A model generated the notes under the pieces. The model searched no databases, was not told the DNA's origin, and saw only the letters and a list, made by a program, of their open reading frames with translations. From positions 1 to 8,380 of the forward strand of contig CACYKX010000141.1 of NCBI GenBank assembly GCA_902775075.1: a stretch of 8,380 bases of DNA, written 5' to 3'. Within the stretch, counting starts at the first letter, position 1; the number at the start of each line of letters is the position of its first letter. The position numbers were made by a program, and so were the translations under genes. This stretch comes from an uncultured Prevotellaceae bacterium. Lineage in GTDB: Bacteria; Bacteroidota; Bacteroidia; Bacteroidales; Bacteroidaceae. This document shows positions 276 to 8,380 of the stretch, one piece after another.

Positions 276-1442
276 ATGGATTATAGACGAGTAATCATCA
301 TTACTGGCGGTGCCGGCTTTATAGGCAGTCATGTTGTACGACTGTTTGTCAACAAGTATCCTGGCTATAAGATCATCAACCTCGATAAACTGACGTATGC
401 GGGCAACCTTGCCAACTTGAAGGATATTGAGGACAAGCCAAACTATCACTTTGTCAAGATGGATATCTGCGACTTCGAGGGGGTAACGAAGCTCATCGAA
501 AGTGAACATGTAGACGGCATCATCCATCTTGCTGCCGAGAGTCACGTAGACCGTAGCATCAAGGATCCGTTCACCTTTGCATATACCAATGTCATCGGTA
601 CACTGACGATGCTGCAGGCTGCCAAGAACTATTGGTCAGCCCAGTCGAAGCCTTGGACCGTGAAACATGGCAACGAAGAAGTACCCTGCCGGTTCTATCA
701 CATTTCAACCGATGAGGTTTATGGAGCCCTCGAGATTACCAATCCGGATGGTATCGAGCCATCGTTCAGCACAAAGGCCTCAAGCGAAAAGCATCATGAG
801 GCTTATGGCACAGAGTTTTTTACAGAAGATCGAAAGTATCAGCCACACAGCCCATACAGTGCGAGCAAGGCTAGTAGCGATCATTTCGTCCGTGCCTTCC
901 ACGACACTTATGGCATGCCGACCATCGTAACAAACTGTTCCAACAACTATGGACCTTACCAGTTCCCGGAGAAACTCATCCCGCTCTTCATCAACAATAT
1001 CCGTCACCGCAAACCGCTGCCGGTATATGGCAAGGGTGAGAATGTGCGTGACTGGCTGTATGTAGAGGATCATGCACGTGCCATCGACCTCATCTTCCAC
1101 AAAGGCAAGGTAGCCGATACCTATAATATTGGAGGTTTCAACGAGTGGAAGAATATCGATATTATCAAGGTTCTCATCAAGACCGTAGACCGCCTGCTCG
1201 ACCGTCCGGAAGGAGCCGATGACGACCTCATCACCCATGTGGCAGATCGCCCAGGTCACGATATGCGTTACGCTATCGACAGCCGTAAACTGCAACTTGA
1301 ACTTGGCTGGGAGCCAAGTCTTCAGTTTGAGGAGGGTATCGAGAAAACGGTTAGATGGTATCTCGATAACCAAGCATGGATGGATAATGTCACCTCTGGC
1401 GATTACCAGAAGTACTACGAAACAATGTATAAGAATAGGTAA
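276..1442 (+). CDS. rmlB: dTDP-glucose 4,6-dehydratase (RmlB/RfbB)
   Basis: This extended short-chain dehydrogenase/reductase converts dTDP-D-glucose to dTDP-4-keto-6-deoxy-D-glucose in the cytoplasm, the entry step for all dTDP-6-deoxyhexoses. The 388 residues show the NAD-binding GGAGFIG (11-17) at the start of the Rossmann fold, LAAESHVDRS (85-94), the catalytic STDEVYG (144-150; Thr145, Asp146, Glu147) and the YSASK pair (Tyr194, Lys198). NCSNNYGPYQFPEKLIP (220-236) and RPGHDMRYAID (325-335) are classic RmlB sugar-nucleotide-binding blocks. It is a little longer than the roughly 360 residues of enterobacterial RmlB because of extra sequence around residues 151-188. The ATG at 276 places the glycine motif normally. 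No Shine-Dalgarno or Bacteroides-type promoter is visible between the IS end and the start, so transcription must come from the IS or further upstream. A 32-bp gap separates it from the next gene. Confidence 0.97.
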   Translation: MDYRRVIIITGGAGFIGSHVVRLFVNKYPGYKIINLDKLTYAGNLANLKDIEDKPNYHFVKMDICDFEGVTKLIESEHVDGIIHLAAESHVDRSIKDPFTFAYTNVIGTLTMLQAAKNYWSAQSKPWTVKHGNEEVPCRFYHISTDEVYGALEITNPDGIEPSFSTKASSEKHHEAYGTEFFTEDRKYQPHSPYSASKASSDHFVRAFHDTYGMPTIVTNCSNNYGPYQFPEKLIPLFINNIRHRKPLPVYGKGENVRDWLYVEDHARAIDLIFHKGKVADTYNIGGFNEWKNIDIIKVLIKTVDRLLDRPEGADDDLITHVADRPGHDMRYAIDSRKLQLELGWEPSLQFEEGIEKTVRWYLDNQAWMDNVTSGDYQKYYETMYKNR

Positions 1443-1474: not shown

Positions 1475-1885
1475 ATGGAAGAACCAAAAATTATCAAATT
1501 AGATAAGCATGTGGATGCGCGAGGCAACCTTTCTGTTGTCGAGGAGTGCAAGGATATCCCATTTGAAATAAAACGTTCTTATTGGATATATGATGTACCA
1601 GGTGGAGAGAGCCGTGGCGGTCATGCCTACAAGACCAATAATGAATTCTATATCGCCCTTTCCGGATCTTTTGATGTTATATTGGACAATGGTTCGGAAA
1701 GGAGACATTATCAGCTCAACCGCTCTTATTTCGGACTCTATGTTCCGAAAGGTTGGTGGCGTGAAATGAACAACTTTTCTACCAACTCTTTGGCCTTGGT
1801 ATTGTCATCTACCAAATATGACGAGCAGGACTATATCCGTGATTATGATGAGTTTCTAAAATTGAGAAAATATGAAGGAAAGTAG
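1475..1885 (+). CDS. FdtA/QdtA-type sugar 3,4-ketoisomerase, copy 1 (cupin; second active-site His replaced by Tyr)
   Basis: This small cupin (136 aa) belongs to the WxcM-like family, which isomerises dTDP-4-keto-6-deoxyglucose to the 3-keto sugar before transamination. Family blocks present are DARGNLSVVE (14-23), PFEIKRSYWIYDVPGGESRGGH (start at 29), ALSGSFDVIL (61-70), WWREMNNF (94-101) and the C-terminal YDEQDYIRDYDEFL (115-128). The active-site segment usually reads RGxHAH; here it is RGGHAY, so His50 (equivalent to the catalytic His of FdtA/QdtA) is kept while the second His is Tyr52. Arg16, before GNL, is of FdtA type. By hand alignment it is roughly 55-60% identical to the next gene over the cupin core, so the two are tandem paralogs. 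Its 3' end overlaps copy 2 by 14 bp. It is probably a working or partner ketoisomerase, but the substitution leaves its activity open. Confidence 0.85.
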   Translation: MEEPKIIKLDKHVDARGNLSVVEECKDIPFEIKRSYWIYDVPGGESRGGHAYKTNNEFYIALSGSFDVILDNGSERRHYQLNRSYFGLYVPKGWWREMNNFSTNSLALVLSSTKYDEQDYIRDYDEFLKLRKYEGK

Positions 1886-2294
1886 AGTATATGATTGTAC
1901 AATCGTAAGCCTAAGCCGCCATCATCGTGAACAGGGCAATCTTTCTGTTGTAGAGAATGGGGTTGATGTTCCGTTTGATGTGAAACGATGCTATTATCTC
2001 TATGATGTGCCGGGTGGCGAGAGCCGTGGAGCTCATGCTCACCGACAACTTTATCAGCTTATTATAGCAGCCAGCGGCAGCTTTACTGTTACACTGGACG
2101 ATGGAAGAGTAAAGCGTACCTTCATGCTAAACCGCCCATATCAGGGACTTCTTGTGGTACCTGGAATCTGGCGTACTTTGGATGATTTCTCCAGTGGTTC
2201 AGTTTGTTTGGTTCTGGCTTCAGAGAAATATGACCCTGCAGATTACATCCGCGATTATGATGAATTTCTAGAATATAAAGGTGCAGCAAAATGA
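1872..2294 (+). CDS. FdtA/QdtA-type sugar 3,4-ketoisomerase, copy 2 (cupin)
   Basis: The second WxcM-like cupin, 140 aa, has the full active-site segment SRGAHAHR with His55 and His57, the pair matching His49 and His51 of characterised FdtA. Other family blocks are VPFDVKRCYYLYDVPGG (33-49), ASGSFTVTLDDG (67-78), IWRTLDDFSSGSVCLVLAS (99-117) and YDPADYIRDYDEFL (120-133). The residue before GNLSVVE is Gln21, where copy 1 and FdtA have Arg. The ATG at 1872 lies inside the end of copy 1 (14-bp overlap), and the stop overlaps the next ATG as ATGA at 2291, so translation is probably coupled on both sides. It would supply dTDP-3-keto-6-deoxyhexose to the aminotransferase encoded at 5633. Whether the product has galacto (FdtA) or gluco (QdtA) configuration at C4 cannot be read safely from the sequence. 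Confidence 0.88.
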   Translation: MKESRVYDCTIVSLSRHHREQGNLSVVENGVDVPFDVKRCYYLYDVPGGESRGAHAHRQLYQLIIAASGSFTVTLDDGRVKRTFMLNRPYQGLLVVPGIWRTLDDFSSGSVCLVLASEKYDPADYIRDYDEFLEYKGAAK

Positions 2295-2889
2295 GTGCAT
2301 CCCCTGTAGCTCATACACGGATAGTCGGTCTGGATATTATTCGTATCAGCTTAATGCTGCTCATATATCTTTTCCATTCCCATATGCATTATCACTGTGA
2401 TTATGGCTTTTTGAATAGTTTTATATCTATGGGTGCAATTGCCATGACAGCTTTTTTCATGCTTTCCGGTTATTCACTTCATATCGCCGATGGACAAAAG
2501 AATTTGACGGATAAAACTTCTCTGCGTCAATTCTATGCAAAGCGTTTTTGGGGCATTATGCCTTTATATTATTTTTGTGGTTCAATTTATGTAATTTATC
2601 TGATTGCAACAAGCAAAGAGAAAGCTATAGAAGAACTTCTTCTTTTCCCGATAGAGGCATTGGGACTTCAGTCTTATTTCTCCTCTTTGTTTGAATGGAG
2701 TCACAATGGAGGTACATGGTTTATATCTTGCCTGCTGATTTGTTATTTCTTTTATCCTTTTTTGGAGAAGACAATCGGAATGCTTGATAGACACTCCAAG
2801 ATATGTGCTGTCTGTGCTTTAGGTGGTATACTGCTTCTGGCACCCATTATTCAGTTCAAATTTCATTTGGCAAGTATTTACTCAAATCC

Positions 2890-2894
2890 TTTTT
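2890..2894 (+). other. T5 tract at first frameshift of the acyltransferase
   Basis: The frame reads ..YSNPF up to this run and then drifts to SGCANFL and a stop at 2917. With T6 the reading becomes NPFFRMCEFSIGIL, which rejoins the downstream frame seamlessly and restores a family-like membrane segment. T3 would also restore the frame. A one-base loss in the run is the simplest explanation. Confidence 0.7.
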
Positions 2895-3117
2895 CCGGAT
2901 GTGCGAATTTTCTATAGGTATCCTCTTAGCTCAAATCAATAGTTTGGACAACTCAGATTTTAAATTACTCAAGCTCTTGCGTAATAAGTGCTTGGCTCTT
3001 TTTGTTGTCGTGTTATTAATATCAGCAGTTACTGTAGCTTTACATATAGGAATACCTGGTGATTATATGCTCTATAGCTGGATTGCACTACCATGTTTTA
3101 TCGTTTTGTTCATAAGC

Positions 3118-3126
3118 GGGGGGGGG
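3118..3126 (+). repeat. Poly-G (G9) tract at second frameshift of the acyltransferase
   Basis: Nine consecutive G's follow ATAAGC. With G9 the upstream frame runs on to an unrelated tail ending in LPVRSL at 3234. With G10 (or G7) it joins the correct C-terminal frame as SGG(G)EYTGCEPKVMAYLS. With G8 (or G11) it stops almost at once, at TGA 3140-3142. All three frame outcomes therefore give different products, as expected of a contingency tract. It is the longest homopolymer in the window. Confidence 0.8.
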
Positions 3127-3364
3127 AGTATACCGGATGTGAACCAAAGGTTATGGCTTATCTTAGCAAAATATCCTATGGCTTCTTCCTTATGCAACTA
3201 TATCTATGGCCGATTACCCGTAAGGTCTTTATAGTTACAGGGATTCCAGAAATAAATATACTAAAGATTATCGTTTCATTCTTGATATGCCTAGGTGGCG
3301 CAATCGTACTCTATGAAGGCATTGAGAAGCCGATAAAGCAAAAATTCCTACAACGAGAAAATAA

Positions 3365-4885
3365 ATGAACGAACAGCAGCCTTCTACGGAAACCGAAAAT
3401 ATACAGGATCAGAAGAGTAGCGACTTCAAACAGAGCTTGAAGACTACAGGTCTCTTTGGTGGCGTGCAGATCTATCAGATCCTTATCCGTATCATAAGTT
3501 CCAAATTCGTGGCTATCCTCTTGGGGCCAGCAGGTATGGGTATCAATGGCCTGCTCCAGTCCACCACCAGCATAATCAGTTCTGTATCCGGACTGGGCTT
3601 GGGTACGAGTGCTATTCGGGATATGTCGGTTTCTTATTCCTCCCATGATAAGAACCGGTTCTTCCGTACACTATCCGTATTCCGCCATCTGGTATGGTAT
3701 ACCGGAATGCTAGGATTTCTGGTCTGTCTAGTAGGAGCACCGCTCTGGAGCAAGATATCCTTTGGCAATTATGACTATACCATCGCCTTTGCGCTGATAG
3801 CAGTAACCTTGCTTTTTACCCAGATTACCAGCGGACAGAATGTGTTACTACAGAGTACGCGCAATTTCAAACTGATGGCGAAATCCACCTTGATAGGATC
3901 AACCATCGGACTTTTTCTCAATATCCCACTTTACTATTTCTGGGGCTTTAAAGGTATTGTGCCATCCATATTGGCTGCCTCAGTGGCATCATTGGCACTA
4001 TCCACCTATTTCTCCCATAAGGTACCATCCGAGAAGGTACAGCTTACCCATAAAGAGGTGATGCATGAGGGCAGAAACATGCTCAATATGGGATTCTTTC
4101 TCATGCTTCAAGGATTTTTCGAGCTTCTCTGTGGTTATTTGGTACGGATCTATATTAGTCATACAGGTACACTTACTGATGTAGGATTGTACAACTCTGG
4201 ATTTACATTGGTAAACACCTATGTCGGAATGGTCTTTACGGCCATGGCAACCGAATACTATCCACGACTTTCATCCTATTCCAAGGATCGTCAGAAATTT
4301 ACTACAGCTATCAATCAACAAATAGAGATTAGTCTGCTTTTAATCGGACCGTTGATTTCTCTTTTCTTGGTATTTGGAGATGTCGCCGTTGTAGTTCTAC
4401 TGTCGCACAAGTTCCAGCCTATTACCTGGATGATCAACTGGGCCATGTTGGCCGTATTCTTCCGAGCGGGAAGCAATAGTATAGCCTTTGCATTTTTAGC
4501 GAAGGCCGATACCAGGTCTTTCTGGCTCAATGAACTGATTGCCAATATCGTCATTTTGATTTTCAATCTGCTGGGCTATTACCTCTATGGACTGACGGGA
4601 TTAGGCTTGTCCTATCTGGCAGGTTATCTCTATTACGACCTGCAGGTTATTGTGACGACAAAATTGAGATACGGATATGTTATGGATCTTGCATTGCTAA
4701 AATCGTTTGTGCCGCAGGTTCTGATAAGTCTTGCTATTATTCTAATTTATGTCACCCTTGGCGACATCACACGATATCTACTAGGTACTCTGCTCGTAGT
4801 ATTGTCAGGATACATTTCCTATAAGTCATTGTCCAAGTATATGGACGTGAAAGCCTTTATCATGAAGAAGGTTCATCGAAAATAA
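3365..4885 (+). CDS. wzx: Wzx-type O-antigen/polysaccharide flippase (MOP superfamily)
   Basis: The 506-residue multi-pass inner-membrane protein fits a lipid-linked oligosaccharide flippase that moves undecaprenyl-PP-linked repeat units to the periplasmic face. A polar N-terminus of about 25 residues precedes a string of hydrophobic segments, about 12-14 by eye. These include IYQILIRIISSKFVAILLGP, WYTGMLGFLVCLVGAPLW, LIGSTIGLFLNIPLYYFWGF, LLLIGPLISLFLVFGDVAVV, ELIANIVILIFNLLGYYLYG and VPQVLISLAIILIYVTLG. The opening 'KTTGLFGGVQ..I...SKFVAILLGPAGMGINGLLQST' pattern is typical of Bacteroidetes 'O-antigen translocase' proteins. The ATG overlaps the stop of the disrupted acyltransferase (ATGA, 3365-3368), so loss of that upstream frame could lower its translation. 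The next gene follows after 19 bp. Substrate specificity cannot be deduced. Confidence 0.9.
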   Translation: MNEQQPSTETENIQDQKSSDFKQSLKTTGLFGGVQIYQILIRIISSKFVAILLGPAGMGINGLLQSTTSIISSVSGLGLGTSAIRDMSVSYSSHDKNRFFRTLSVFRHLVWYTGMLGFLVCLVGAPLWSKISFGNYDYTIAFALIAVTLLFTQITSGQNVLLQSTRNFKLMAKSTLIGSTIGLFLNIPLYYFWGFKGIVPSILAASVASLALSTYFSHKVPSEKVQLTHKEVMHEGRNMLNMGFFLMLQGFFELLCGYLVRIYISHTGTLTDVGLYNSGFTLVNTYVGMVFTAMATEYYPRLSSYSKDRQKFTTAINQQIEISLLLIGPLISLFLVFGDVAVVVLLSHKFQPITWMINWAMLAVFFRAGSNSIAFAFLAKADTRSFWLNELIANIVILIFNLLGYYLYGLTGLGLSYLAGYLYYDLQVIVTTKLRYGYVMDLALLKSFVPQVLISLAIILIYVTLGDITRYLLGTLLVVLSGYISYKSLSKYMDVKAFIMKKVHRK

Positions 4886-4904: not shown

Positions 4905-5441
4905 ATGATTCACCCATTGAGTGACTGTAAGTCTAAGCATATAGGCGAGGGAACAAATATATGGCAGTTTTGCGTCATATTCCCGGATGCAATTATCGGA
5001 AATAATTGTAATATTTGTGCGAATGTCCTCATAGAAAACGATGTTAGGATAGGCAATAACGTTACCGTGAAATCTGGAGTAGAAATCTGGGATGGCATTA
5101 CGGTAGAGGATGATGTGTTCATCGGACCTAATGTGACGTTCACGAATGATCTTGTGCCTCGATCCAAAAATCCAAACTGGAAACAAGTCAATACCATCAT
5201 TCAGAAGGGAGCGAGTATCGGTGCCAATGCCACAGTATTGGCCGGACATACAATCGGCAGTTATTCTTTTATAGGTGCGGGAAGTGTTGTCACGAAGGAT
5301 GTGCCTCCCTATACTTGCTGGTATGGCAATCCTGCCCGTCAGCACGGATATGTTACTAGAGAAGGAATAATTTTAGATTTGAATAAGAAAGATAAAGATG
5401 GAAACGCTTATACCATCGATAACCCTAATTTAGAAGGTTAA
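4905..5441 (+). CDS. Hexapeptide-repeat N-acetyltransferase, FdtC/QdtC type
   Basis: This left-handed parallel beta-helix acyltransferase of 178 aa is expected to use acetyl-CoA to N-acetylate the 3-amino group of a dTDP-3-amino-3,6-dideoxyhexose. Isoleucine-led hexapeptide repeats run through most of the chain: IGEGTN, IGNNCN, IGNNVT, ITVEDD, IGPNVT, IGANAT, IGSYSF and IGAGSV (about residues 13-127). [10 protein letters not shown] (78-87) is the loop typical of the WxcM-N/FdtC subgroup, where a surface-exposed 'FTND..PR' contacts the nucleotide sugar. The end of the helix has the classic [19 protein letters not shown] (128-146). About 30 polar residues follow. Its place in the same operon as the ketoisomerases and aminotransferase supports the sugar N-acetyltransferase role over a serine or maltose acetyltransferase. 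The ATG at 4905 is the natural start, since [11 protein letters not shown] falls at the usual N-terminal position. Confidence 0.88.
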
Positions 5442-5463: not shown

Positions 5464-5646
5464 GTCAAGTTGCTGCATCTATTAGATATCGCCTTAGAGC
5501 AATGTCTGCAGTCCAAAGCGTTCCATTCCTGCATGAAGATGAAGATTGTTGGATTTGACTTCAGCTTATCTTGGAAAAATACCGTGCTGATCTTCAAATA
5601 TGCGAGAGAAAAGTTAAAACAAGATAAAAAATATGGTTTTATTTAA
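5464..5646 (+). pseudogene. Probable 3' remnant of a lost gene in the fdtC-fdtB-type spacer
   Basis: The 191-bp gap at 5442-5632 is the only long gap in an otherwise tightly packed cluster. One frame stays open for 60 codons from just after a TAA (5461-5463) to a TAA at 5644-5646. It contains LDIALEQCLQSKAFHSCMK, then KIVGFDFSLSWKNTVLIF and [16 protein letters not shown]. Its codons and amphipathic, basic C-terminus look like real protein, and it ends 14 bp inside the aminotransferase gene, the same overlap length as between the two ketoisomerases. The first in-frame ATG is at 5533 (a 37-aa product), so a short intact gene is unlikely. The ending resembles the C-terminus of some glycosyltransferases only vaguely; I do not recognise the family. 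No terminator or clear Bacteroides promoter is seen in the gap. Confidence 0.45.
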
Positions 5647-6736
5647 TGATTTAAAGGGTGTAACCACCAAGTATAAGGATGAGTTGCATGAGGCTGTTAA
5701 CCGTGTCGTGGATTCCGGATGGTATCTGGGAAGCGGAGAGAATGACAAGTTTGAGAAAGACTTTGCAGAATATATTGGCACTAAGTATTGTGTAGGTGTT
5801 GGCAATGGTCTTGATGCACTCTACTGGATATTCCGCGCCTATATTGAGATGGGCGTGATGAAATCAGGAGATGAGGTGCTTGTACCTGCAAATACCTTTA
5901 TCGCTTCTATTCATTCCATCACGGAAAATGGTCTTGTACCAGTGCTGGTAGAGCCGAAGCAGGAGACGCTCGAAATCGACGACGACAAGATAGAGGCAGC
6001 CATAACTTACCGTACACGGGGTATTCTGCTGGTTCATCTCTATGGACGTTGCGCCTATACCGACAAGGTCGGTGAACTCTGCAAGAAGTATAATCTCAAA
6101 CTTGTGGAGGACAATGCCCAGGCCCATGGCTGCATGTTTAAGGGTGTGAAGACCGGTGCCCTCGGAGATGCTGCCGGTCATAGCTTCTATCCAGGCAAGA
6201 ACCTTGGTGCCTTTGGTGATGCAGGTGCTGTTACCACAAACGATGAAGAACTTCAGGCTACGGTCCGTGCCCTCGCCAACTACGGCAGTCAGAAGAAATA
6301 TGTTTTCAAATATATCGGTCGTAACAGTCGTTTGGATTCAATTCAGGCAGCTGTGCTGGATGTTAAGTTGAAGCATCTTGATGAAGATAATGCTCACCGC
6401 AAGGCGATTGCCCATTATTATTATGACCATATCAACAACCAGCATGTAACATTGCCAGTACGCATGGATGATGAGAACAATGTGTATCACATCTTCCCAA
6501 TTCTGTGCGACCGTCGCGATGCCATGCAGCTGTATCTGAAAGATAATGGTATTCAGACGCTGATCCATTACCCGATTGCTCCGCACAAGCAGGAGTGCTA
6601 TAAGGACTGGAACAACTGGAGTCTGCCTATCTCAGAGTTGTTGCATCAGCAGGAACTGAGCCTGCCAATGCATGCCGTTTTGACGATGGAGGAAGCCAAG
6701 CAGGTAGTGGATGCCATTAACAGTTTTGAAGGATAA
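5633..6736 (+). CDS. dTDP-3-amino-3,6-dideoxyhexose aminotransferase, FdtB/QdtB type (DegT/DnrJ/EryC1/StrS family)
   Basis: This fold-type I PLP enzyme of 367 aa would transaminate the dTDP-3-keto-6-deoxyhexose made by the ketoisomerases, probably with glutamate as donor. DegT-family landmarks are [18 protein letters not shown] (28-45), GVGNGLDAL (55-63) for phosphate binding, [14 protein letters not shown] (79-92), VEDNAQAHG (158-166) with Asp160 facing the PLP nitrogen, and [15 protein letters not shown] (184-198) with Lys189 as the Schiff-base lysine. ANYGSQKKY and the [13 protein letters not shown] block follow, with [12 protein letters not shown] near the C-terminus. The Gx[14 protein letters not shown] combination is typical of the FdtB/QdtB/DesV-like 3-ketosugar aminotransferases rather than the 4-keto ArnB type. 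The start at 5633 gives the usual 'M..FNDLK' opening. It overlaps the remnant frame upstream and is 6 bp from the next gene. Confidence 0.93.
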
Positions 6737-6742
6737 CACACG

Positions 6743-7786
6743 ATGTATACACAGGGAAAGAAACGTAATTCCAGTGTAGAGTTGTTCCGTATATTAGCCA
6801 TGCTATTTGTTGTGATCGTTCACTACAATGGCTGGCTGACAGGCGGAATGGCAGACCACTTCGATCAAGACGCTGCATCTGTACATAGTGTGACACAGGC
6901 GACGATACAGGGAATGACAGCAGTGTGCGTAAATTGCTTTCTTGTCATCACCGGATACTATGGCGTGAAGTTCAAGGGGCGTACATTTTGGAATATGTGG
7001 GTACTCTTAGTATGTATCTATGTACCTTGTGAAATTCTGATGCAGGGATATCACGGAGAGATTCATCCGATGGCCTTTGTAGACGACATCCTTGCATTTA
7101 CAAGGGAAAGTTATTACGTACAGTGCTACTTGATGCTCGTGTTTCTCTCTCCGATACTGAATTCTTTCATAGAGAAGTATGACAAGAAGATCCTGCCTTA
7201 TGTCCTGATGTTCTGGGGTATAGAGTTTGTCATGGACTGGGGCCATCACAATCATTCGCTCGGTTTCGAGCAAGGATATGGTCTTATCCACTTTGTTCTA
7301 ATGTACATGCTCGGCCGTACAGCTGCATTGTATAAGGACAAGATAACTTCGATGAATATCAACTGTTTTAGGGGGGGGTACTTCATTTGTTGCCTGCTGA
7401 TGGCACTCAGCTATATCGCAGGATTAAGTTATGATCGGAGCTACTGTTACAGTAATCCGCTGAACATTGTAGGATCATTCTGTCTCTTCTTCCTTTTTCT
7501 CCGGAGAAACTATTATAATAAATGGATAAATAAGGTTGCAGCCAGTACCTTCTCCGTCTATATTCTCCACACTTGCGCACCAATGATACTAGTCATAGGC
7601 AAGATAGATGTGTACACCTTATCCCATTATTCCTATGGACTTTACTTGCTCATAGGAGCAGGTGTTATAGCCTCCGTGTATATCATAGGCACGTTGTATG
7701 ATTGGGTAAGAATAGCTATTACCCATCGTGTCAGCGAGCACATATATCAATGGTTAAGCAAAAAGATAAAAATTAATTATATATGA
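6743..7786 (+). CDS. Acyltransferase family 3 membrane O-acyltransferase (intact, with G8 tract)
   Basis: This integral-membrane acyltransferase of 347 aa probably O-acetylates the polysaccharide repeat unit. The family opening RNSSVELFRILAMLFVVIVHY (starting at residue 8) carries Arg16 and candidate catalytic His27. VNCFLVITGYYGVKFKGRTF is the second membrane segment and loop. About 10 hydrophobic segments follow, including YVQCYLMLVFLSPILNSF and NIVGSFCLFFLFLRRNYYN. Near the end is the characteristic ASTFSVYILHT (267-277). That STF.VY(I/L)(I/L)H block is typical of capsule/O-antigen O-acetyltransferases in Bacteroidales. Codons 210-212 (Arg-Gly-Gly) are encoded by a run of eight G's at 7371-7378, in frame here, between membrane segments. 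It starts 6 bp after the aminotransferase, and its stop overlaps the glycosyltransferase start as ATGA. It is not closely similar to the disrupted acyltransferase at 2291, so the two probably modify different positions. The acyl donor and target sugar are unknown. Confidence 0.9.
   Translation: MYTQGKKRNSSVELFRILAMLFVVIVHYNGWLTGGMADHFDQDAASVHSVTQATIQGMTAVCVNCFLVITGYYGVKFKGRTFWNMWVLLVCIYVPCEILMQGYHGEIHPMAFVDDILAFTRESYYVQCYLMLVFLSPILNSFIEKYDKKILPYVLMFWGIEFVMDWGHHNHSLGFEQGYGLIHFVLMYMLGRTAALYKDKITSMNINCFRGGYFICCLLMALSYIAGLSYDRSYCYSNPLNIVGSFCLFFLFLRRNYYNKWINKVAASTFSVYILHTCAPMILVIGKIDVYTLSHYSYGLYLLIGAGVIASVYIIGTLYDWVRIAITHRVSEHIYQWLSKKIKINYI
7371..7378 (+). repeat. Poly-G (G8) tract inside the second acyltransferase
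   Basis: The eight G's follow TTTTA and encode the Arg-Gly-Gly of residues 210-212, leaving the gene in frame (ON). Loss or gain of one G would frameshift the last 135 or so residues, including the STFSVYILH block. The only other G-run of six or more in the window is the G9 tract in the first acyltransferase. Confidence 0.8.
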
Positions 7787-8380
7787 CAGAAAAGAAGCCT
7801 TTGGTTTCCGTTGTAATAATCACTTACAACAGTGGCAATTACATTTTGGAGACGCTGGAAAGCGTCAAAAAGCAGACTTATAAGAATATAGAGCTGATCA
7901 TATCTGATGATGGCTCTGTCAAGGACGATACCGTGGTAAAGGTCCGTCAATGGATAGCAGACAATAAGGCCTTCTTCACGATAGCCCCAGTATTGCTGAC
8001 AGTAGAGAAGAATACAGGGACGGTGAAGAATCTCAATCGTGGAGTAAAAGCTAGTCATGGAGAGTGGATTAAGTCTTTGGCTGGAGATGATGAACTGAAG
8101 CCTAATTGCATAGAGGAATTTGTAAAATTCGTAAATGCCCATCCAAATTGTCAGTTTTGCTGCTGTGACTTAGAGTTATTCAGCGATGATGGTAATGTAT
8201 CTAGTGGGGATATCATGTGGTATAATTATTTTTTTAATTGTGTCAAGGAGCCATATAAAAAGAAGTGTAGACGAATTATATACGAATACACAATTCCAGG
8301 GCCAGGCTGGTTCTATTCTCGTAAGCTATTTGATGAAATCGGAGGATTTGATGAAGATTATGTATTAACGGAAGAATGGC
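7783..8380 (+). CDS. Family 2 glycosyltransferase (GT-A fold), 3' end outside window
   Basis: The frame from ATG 7783 stays open for 199 codons to the right edge. It opens with PLVSVVIITYNSGNYILETL, the standard GT2 first strand and nucleotide-binding loop. ESVKKQTYKNIELIISDDGS (26-45) follows, then EKNTGTVKNLNRGVKASHGEWI (from 75) and the metal-binding LAGDDEL (99-105), the DxD-equivalent. PGPGWFYSRKLFDEIGGFDE (172-191) and the final LTEEW match the GT2 acceptor-loop region with the catalytic ED/EE-type acid. It would transfer an activated sugar to the growing lipid-linked repeat unit at the cytoplasmic side of the membrane. The start overlaps the acyltransferase stop as ATGA. The nearly 200 residues visible are the full catalytic core; only the C-terminal part is missing. 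Donor and acceptor cannot be inferred. Confidence 0.9.
   Translation, partial: MTEKKPLVSVVIITYNSGNYILETLESVKKQTYKNIELIISDDGSVKDDTVVKVRQWIADNKAFFTIAPVLLTVEKNTGTVKNLNRGVKASHGEWIKSLAGDDELKPNCIEEFVKFVNAHPNCQFCCCDLELFSDDGNVSSGDIMWYNYFFNCVKEPYKKKCRRIIYEYTIPGPGWFYSRKLFDEIGGFDEDYVLTEEW

Follow-up and report, generated by a model that had tools for sequence, protein, structure and literature searches.

Gene Content of the Locus

The window, i.e., the whole stretch of 8,380 nt that was analyzed, is part of a surface-polysaccharide locus with dTDP-sugar genes, a Wzx-type flippase, acyltransferases, and a glycosyltransferase (Table 1). Two of its genes, designated as AT3-1 and AT3-2, encode membrane acyltransferases matching PF01757 (AT3); the scores were 66.7 bits for the N-terminal piece of AT3-1 and 51.8 bits for AT3-2 (cut-off 31 for both). 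Among 299 genomes, the best match of rmlB was 78% (G484).

Table 1. Features of the window and the evidence for each.
Feature	Coordinates	Strand	Evidence
RmlB, dTDP-glucose 4,6-dehydratase (sugar pathway context)	276–1442	+	TIGR01181 above cut-off
Two FdtA/WxcM-like genes (1475–1885 and 1872–2294)	1475–2294	+	PF05523
AT3-1, membrane acyltransferase gene broken at two places	2291–3368	+	PF01757
T5 run, first lesion of AT3-1, 5' of the G run	2890–2894	+	Start-codon frame compared with P0001
G9 run in AT3-1, where the frame changes a second time	3118–3126	+	Sequence, alignment to P0001
Wzx-type polysaccharide flippase	3365–4885	+	PF13440, PF01943
Hexapeptide acyltransferase, without long homopolymer	4905–5441	+	Profile match, run scan
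DegT/DnrJ/EryC1 sugar aminotransferase	5633–6736	+	Profile match
AT3-2, second membrane acyltransferase gene, intact	6743–7786	+	PF01757
G8 run in AT3-2, frame open	7371–7378	+	Run scan, frame test
Family 2 glycosyltransferase (GT2), cut by the window end	7783–8380	+	Profile match

The C-terminal end of an IS66-type transposase was found at 3–170 (PF13817, 37.5 bits, cut-off 30), which indicates that a mobile element borders the locus. An inverton in the window was considered and rejected: seven inverted-repeat pairs were detected (73–93% complementary), none of them convincing; the locus extends past the window, and an inverton may lie outside it. A plasmid search with the AT3-1 DNA gave zero matches, and relatives were absent from the viral contigs searched with P0001 and P0121, the protein relatives of AT3-1 and AT3-2 described below.

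Homopolymer Runs in the Window

The G runs of the window had lengths of 1–5, and then of 8 and 9, with none of 6 or 7. G9 and G8 were the only homopolymers of at least 8 nt; runs of A, C, and T never reached that length. The earlier note had placed the G9 run inside a membrane acyltransferase gene and had estimated about 0.01 such runs per window by chance. The position proved exact, and on recomputation the number of G runs of at least 9 nt expected per window was 0.0106 with independent bases and 0.0144 with a first-order Markov model. For runs of at least 8 nt, the corresponding values were 0.047 and 0.061. As a related-genome background, 197 G runs of at least 8 nt were counted in about 58.8 Mb (20 genomes), that is, 0.028 per stretch of the size of the window; on this background, the probability of two or more such runs in one window was 3.9e-4. 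The second run, the G8 in AT3-2, was missing from the earlier note. The two runs are separated by 4.2 kb, and each sits in an AT3 gene. As in contingency genes, both repeats lie inside a reading frame and are longer than expected by chance.

Reading Frames of AT3-1 and AT3-2

AT3-1 consisted of pieces in three frames (2291–2917, 2803–3234, and 3093–3368), which aligned separately to the intact relative P0001. From the start codon at 2291, the frame stops at 2917, 5' of the G9 run; by alignment, the frame loss was mapped to the T5 run (2890–2894), through which P0001 runs. The three frames following G9 stop at 3232–3234, 3140–3142, and 3366–3368, in agreement with the three outcomes described before from the sequence (a tail to 3234, a stop at 3140, and the full C-terminus). 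Downstream of the upstream lesion, the run length thus sets whether the product is full or truncated. Restoration of the gene by a change in G number alone was not supported, because AT3-1 is also broken upstream; given the lesion at 2890–2894, no length of the G run alone yields the full AT3-1 protein.

AT3-2 had a three-way frame layout after its run like that of AT3-1. The G8 length keeps the gene open to 7786, and stops come at 7400 and 7434 in the other frames, so that here too the run length sets a full or a truncated product. AT3-2 was intact apart from the run, which AT3-1, with its lesion at 2890–2894, was not. Judged from the reading frames, the window copy appears to have AT3-1 in the OFF state and AT3-2 in the ON state. 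The AT3-1 copy may be a switched-off allele that is starting to decay, or its upstream lesion may be a sequence error.

P0001 matched PF01757 with 92.4 bits, and its predicted fold was all-helical (mean pLDDT 82.8). The G9 site corresponds to residues 277–279 of P0001, at the end of the predicted helix 259–278; the predicted helices 286–316 and 322–352 follow the run site. On this model, out-of-frame AT3-1 products are predicted to lose the last two helices. A search of the PDB by fold with the P0001 model gave 148 weak matches, with zero at E ≤ 0.001, and a PDB sequence search gave no solved structure matching P0001.

Frame State in Relatives of the Two Genes

The protein searches were evaluated on the matches listed, 120 of 399 for AT3-1 and 120 of 177 for AT3-2. 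P0001 (356 aa) was 99% identical to the N-terminal piece of AT3-1, with 97% of that piece covered, and stayed open through the run site. The tail of P0007 (191 aa; 8 contigs listed) was, but for a few residues, the alternative-frame tail of the window, and a large internal part was missing from this protein; it was the sole find of a protein search for out-of-frame fragments.

For AT3-2, P0121 was in frame, with one difference in 347 residues. Five further relatives were compared as protein letters only: P0122 and P0123 were open at the run site, P0132 continued in another frame and then met a stop, P0163 had an immediate stop, and P0237 (54% identity) left the frame there. P0163 is the weakest of these relatives, as its first half resembles P0126 and its second half P0123, and it may be a chimera. 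A comparison of the tract in relatives, as proposed in the earlier note, gave in-frame and out-of-frame relatives for both genes. Natural in-frame and out-of-frame alleles at one site were found at the protein level and at the DNA level, the alleles compared being from different strains or species.

A conserved active-site Gly-Gly motif at the AT3-2 site was considered and dropped, since relatives without Gly-Gly exist. Near their C-termini, four proteins of the AT3-2 type (P0186, P0200, P0211, and P0221) departed from the common frame at a His-x-x-Pro(-Pro) site, which could be a candidate poly-C switch.

Close AT3 relatives with DNA did not turn up: the best AT3-1-type segment had 53% identity, and draws of 301, 399, and 398 genomes yielded at best 59% for a short AT3-1 piece and 32 and 42% for AT3-2. 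Twelve AT3-2 homologs with DNA (28–42% identity) had zero G/C runs of at least 7 nt, which counts against the contingency reading. Among 30 distant AT3-2 homologs, three had a run (C7, C8, and C11) at most 75 bp from the match.

Among 40 AT3-1-type loci of named genomes, 9 had a G/C run of at least 7 nt in the match or at most 60 bp away. The match length was not a multiple of three in 6 of the 40 loci, and all six were among the nine with runs (Fisher P = 2e-5). In five of these six frame-changed loci (L019, L024, L029, L031, and L036, from three Lachnospiraceae, Xylanibacter ruminicola D31d, and a Spirochaetales MAG), the frame change fell exactly at the run. The sixth, L028 (5988–6200), had a G9 at the gene start and an internal break elsewhere; this break was not in a homopolymer, and the gene resembles the double lesion of the window. 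A G9 stood at the same place in L031 (X. ruminicola D31d, out of frame) and in L038 (RUG12354, in frame). The positions of the runs along the protein varied widely among the AT3-1 homologs, which favors repeated gain of runs over a conserved Gly motif.

Frequency of G Runs in AT3 Genes of Related Genomes

The census covered the 20 genomes that come next after G001 (X. ruminicola D31d) in a list of the genus of that species, two of which (G210 and G409) were already known to carry a run-bearing AT3 gene before the count. The 115 PF01757 matches of these genomes covered 106 kb. With a run-to-match distance of 30 bp allowed, 9 of the 197 G runs of at least 8 nt fell in AT3 genes, compared with 0.35 expected (P = 1.7e-10); run-bearing AT3 genes occurred in 5 of the 20 genomes (P = 3.5e-5 counted by genome). 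When G210 and G409 were left out, four runs in 3 of 18 genomes remained, compared with 0.26 expected (P = 1.6e-4 by runs and 2.5e-3 by genomes). In the MFS control, none of the 197 runs lay within the 150 matches listed (0.57 expected).

In the open-frame test, a gene was scored as out of frame when the longest open frame ahead of the run differed from the one following it. Six of the nine run-bearing AT3 genes of the census were in frame, and three were out of frame at the run (that of G407, one of two in G210, and one of two in G303). The census also contained AT3 genes broken without a G run of at least 8 nt, namely five matches that contain internal stops and a single split pair, G417:C51.

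The best 90 AT3 genes among the matches listed, with a run-to-match distance of 75 bp allowed, had 9 G/C runs of at least 8 nt in 99 kb, compared with 5 in 417 kb of flanks. The density was 7.6 times that of the flanks (P = 2.8e-4), and A/T runs of at least 8 nt showed no enrichment in the same best 90 listed. All 10 G/C runs of at least 7 nt in this sample were in frame, five of them from one genome (G441); the sample was ranked by score and is biased to intact genes. G441 was unusually rich in G runs of at least 8 nt, and its run of more than 40 G at the end of one contig probably arose as an artefact in assembly.

For a random sample of 40, 166 of the 197 runs were eligible, after the 9 AT3 runs, the other 9 runs of two clusters, 10 runs of G411, and three members of close pairs were left out. 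One run lay at an AT3 start, one in a hexapeptide gene, one in a GNAT gene (23.6 bits, cut-off 20.7), and one in a GT2 gene. The remaining 36 were spread over further genes (including that of the RNA polymerase beta subunit), frames lacking a Pfam match, and short frames or places with no frame. Open frames totalling at least 150 codons contained or adjoined 25 of the 40 runs. The idea that G runs of at least 8 nt mark switches in general was dropped, as the random sample argues against it. A run alone is thus weak evidence, and it is the association with acyltransferases that carries weight.

Among the runs of G411, an in-frame G9 was found near the start of a D12-class adenine DNA methyltransferase gene (L273:1380–2426; G411:C88), possibly a switchable methylation system.

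Clusters of Runs in Acyltransferase Genes

Several genomes had runs in neighboring acyltransferase genes; these clusters were picked for their AT3 genes, not at random. X. ruminicola D31d had 8 separate G runs of at least 8 nt genome-wide (overlapping entries merged), including two separated by 4.4 kb, one in an out-of-frame AT3 gene and the other in an in-frame MBOAT acyltransferase gene. In RUG12354, two AT3 genes separated by 4.5 kb had runs and kept the frame, and G409 had three run-bearing AT3 genes within a 22-kb stretch, all in frame.

In G407 (L279 and L280; G407:C107), eight runs were found in 30 kb. By the open-frame test, the frame was lost at the run in two hexapeptide genes, one MBOAT gene, and one AT3 gene; of these, only the AT3 gene also had its part ahead of the run identified by Pfam. 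In a GNAT-like gene, which scored weakly and below the Pfam cut-off, the run stood near the 3' end, and a frame break there was not established; an ATP-grasp gene was in frame, and the remaining two gave no Pfam match. G210 (L281; G210:C4) had four runs within 13 kb: one AT3 gene and two hexapeptide genes were out of frame, and a second AT3 gene was in frame. Acyltransferases of unrelated folds with runs thus occurred in three loci, those of D31d, G407, and G210.

Alternative Explanations

Both frame changes of AT3-1 fall in homopolymers, as they would if both were sequencing or assembly errors and the real gene were intact, and the window may come from a metagenome assembly. This explanation is unlikely in our estimate. 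The longer runs elsewhere in the window (T6 at 816–821, T7 at 8229–8235, and the G8 of AT3-2) are in frame, which argues against it, and the independent protein P0007 has the same OFF tail. A wrong length would also leave in place the G run, its twin in AT3-2, and the enrichment seen elsewhere in related genomes. A constant fraction of full-length protein, made by programmed frameshifting or by slippage of transcription at G9, was judged to be very improbable. Long homopolymers can slip in transcription or translation, as described mainly for A/T runs in PMC3711429. Slippage of this kind would leave the relatives that are open in frame at the same site unexplained and would not bridge the upstream break.

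The second lesion of AT3-1, the internal loss in P0007, and the AT3 breaks without G runs of at least 8 nt count against the contingency reading. Together with L028, whose AT3 gene combines a G9 at the start with a frame break elsewhere inside the gene, they would fit an ordinary decaying pseudogene, in which the G run is neutral and AT3-1 is being lost; contingency is also consistent with decay of an allele once it is switched off. We consider it quite improbable that decay alone accounts for the data, since AT3-2 of the same locus is intact with its G8, P0001 is intact, and AT3 genes are enriched for G runs and not for A/T runs. The frame change, moreover, fell at the run in five of the six frame-changed AT3-1-type loci and in three of the nine run-bearing AT3 genes of the census.

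Proposed Mechanism

The in-frame and out-of-frame relatives, the enrichment of runs in AT3 genes, and the breaks located at the runs support the contingency reading. On these comparisons, we think it likely that G9 and G8 are slipped-strand contingency loci of two acyltransferases. The slipped-strand phase variation suggested for AT3-1 in the earlier note is partly supported, by these comparisons, with the exception of a restoration of the gene by a change in G number alone.

In the proposed mechanism, slippage of DNA polymerase would change the run length by one or a few Gs, and the change would shift the rest of the gene into or out of frame. In frame, the full AT3 acyltransferase would acylate (probably acetylate) one of the sugars in the surface polysaccharide that the locus produces. 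Out of frame, the protein would be without its last membrane helices and the acyl group would be missing. With two switchable AT3 genes, one locus could have up to four acylation patterns. Slippage in living cells, its reversibility, the acyl group, the sugar, and any role in defense against phages or immune attack are inferred.

A broader proposal can be made from the window (two AT3 genes) and the loci of D31d, G407, and G210 as examples. The Prevotella group may have acylation phasomes, in which one surface-polysaccharide locus holds several acyltransferases of unrelated folds (AT3, MBOAT, hexapeptide, and perhaps GNAT), every one under a poly-G switch of its own. The decoration would then be shuffled combinatorially on a constant backbone glycan, as a layer apart from promoter inversion. 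We give this proposal about an even chance of being correct.

O-acetyl groups commonly serve as phage-receptor and antibody epitopes. If the proposed switching is real, one strain could vary the acylation of one polysaccharide without changing the expressed locus, some AT3 'pseudogenes' in assemblies would be OFF alleles, and tools that look for inversions would overlook the poly-G layer.

Comparison with Known Systems

The mechanism itself is known; the taxon and the stacked acyltransferase switches are the new part. Within the coverage of the literature search, which left most subscription journals outside, poly-G switching of several acyltransferases in Bacteroidales was not found; the same search gave nothing for Prevotella, homopolymeric, and phase-variable together, and nothing for Xylanibacter ruminicola with phase variation. 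For Prevotella with slipped-strand mispairing and phase variation, the titles found concern Gardnerella, Neisseria, and Haemophilus.

Phase variation in Bacteroidales is discussed mainly as DNA inversion. In the Epsilonproteobacteria Campylobacter jejuni and Helicobacter pylori, G runs of glycan genes switch by slippage; those genes encode mainly glycosyltransferases, whereas here they encode acyltransferases.

Haemophilus influenzae oafA and Salmonella oafB are named as phase variable in parts of a review of AT3 proteins (PMC9558356). Like the genes proposed to switch here, oafA of H. influenzae is an AT3 gene; its on/off switching alters the acetylation of a surface glycan, the LOS (PMC9558356). 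It switches by tetranucleotide repeats, according to a title in the reference list of that review. H. influenzae belongs to the Gammaproteobacteria. The genes described here have mononucleotide G runs, and two AT3 genes stand in one polysaccharide locus of a probable member of the Bacteroidales. In Akkermansia muciniphila, a C10 run in the acyltransferase gene Amuc_2098 and a G8 run in a capsule gene are described in sections of PMC3048395, where slippage is proposed from sequence. This gut commensal resembles the present case in having a homopolymer in an acyltransferase of capsule synthesis (PMC3048395), but belongs to the Verrucomicrobiota. In parts of a 2026 paper, capsule phase variation in Akkermansia is ascribed to an inverton (PMC13343947). 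Sections of that paper also mention the invertible capsule promoters of Bacteroidales (PMC13343947). These promoters likewise concern phase variation of surface polysaccharides in the same order; they switch whole loci, whereas in the window single enzymes within a locus would switch.
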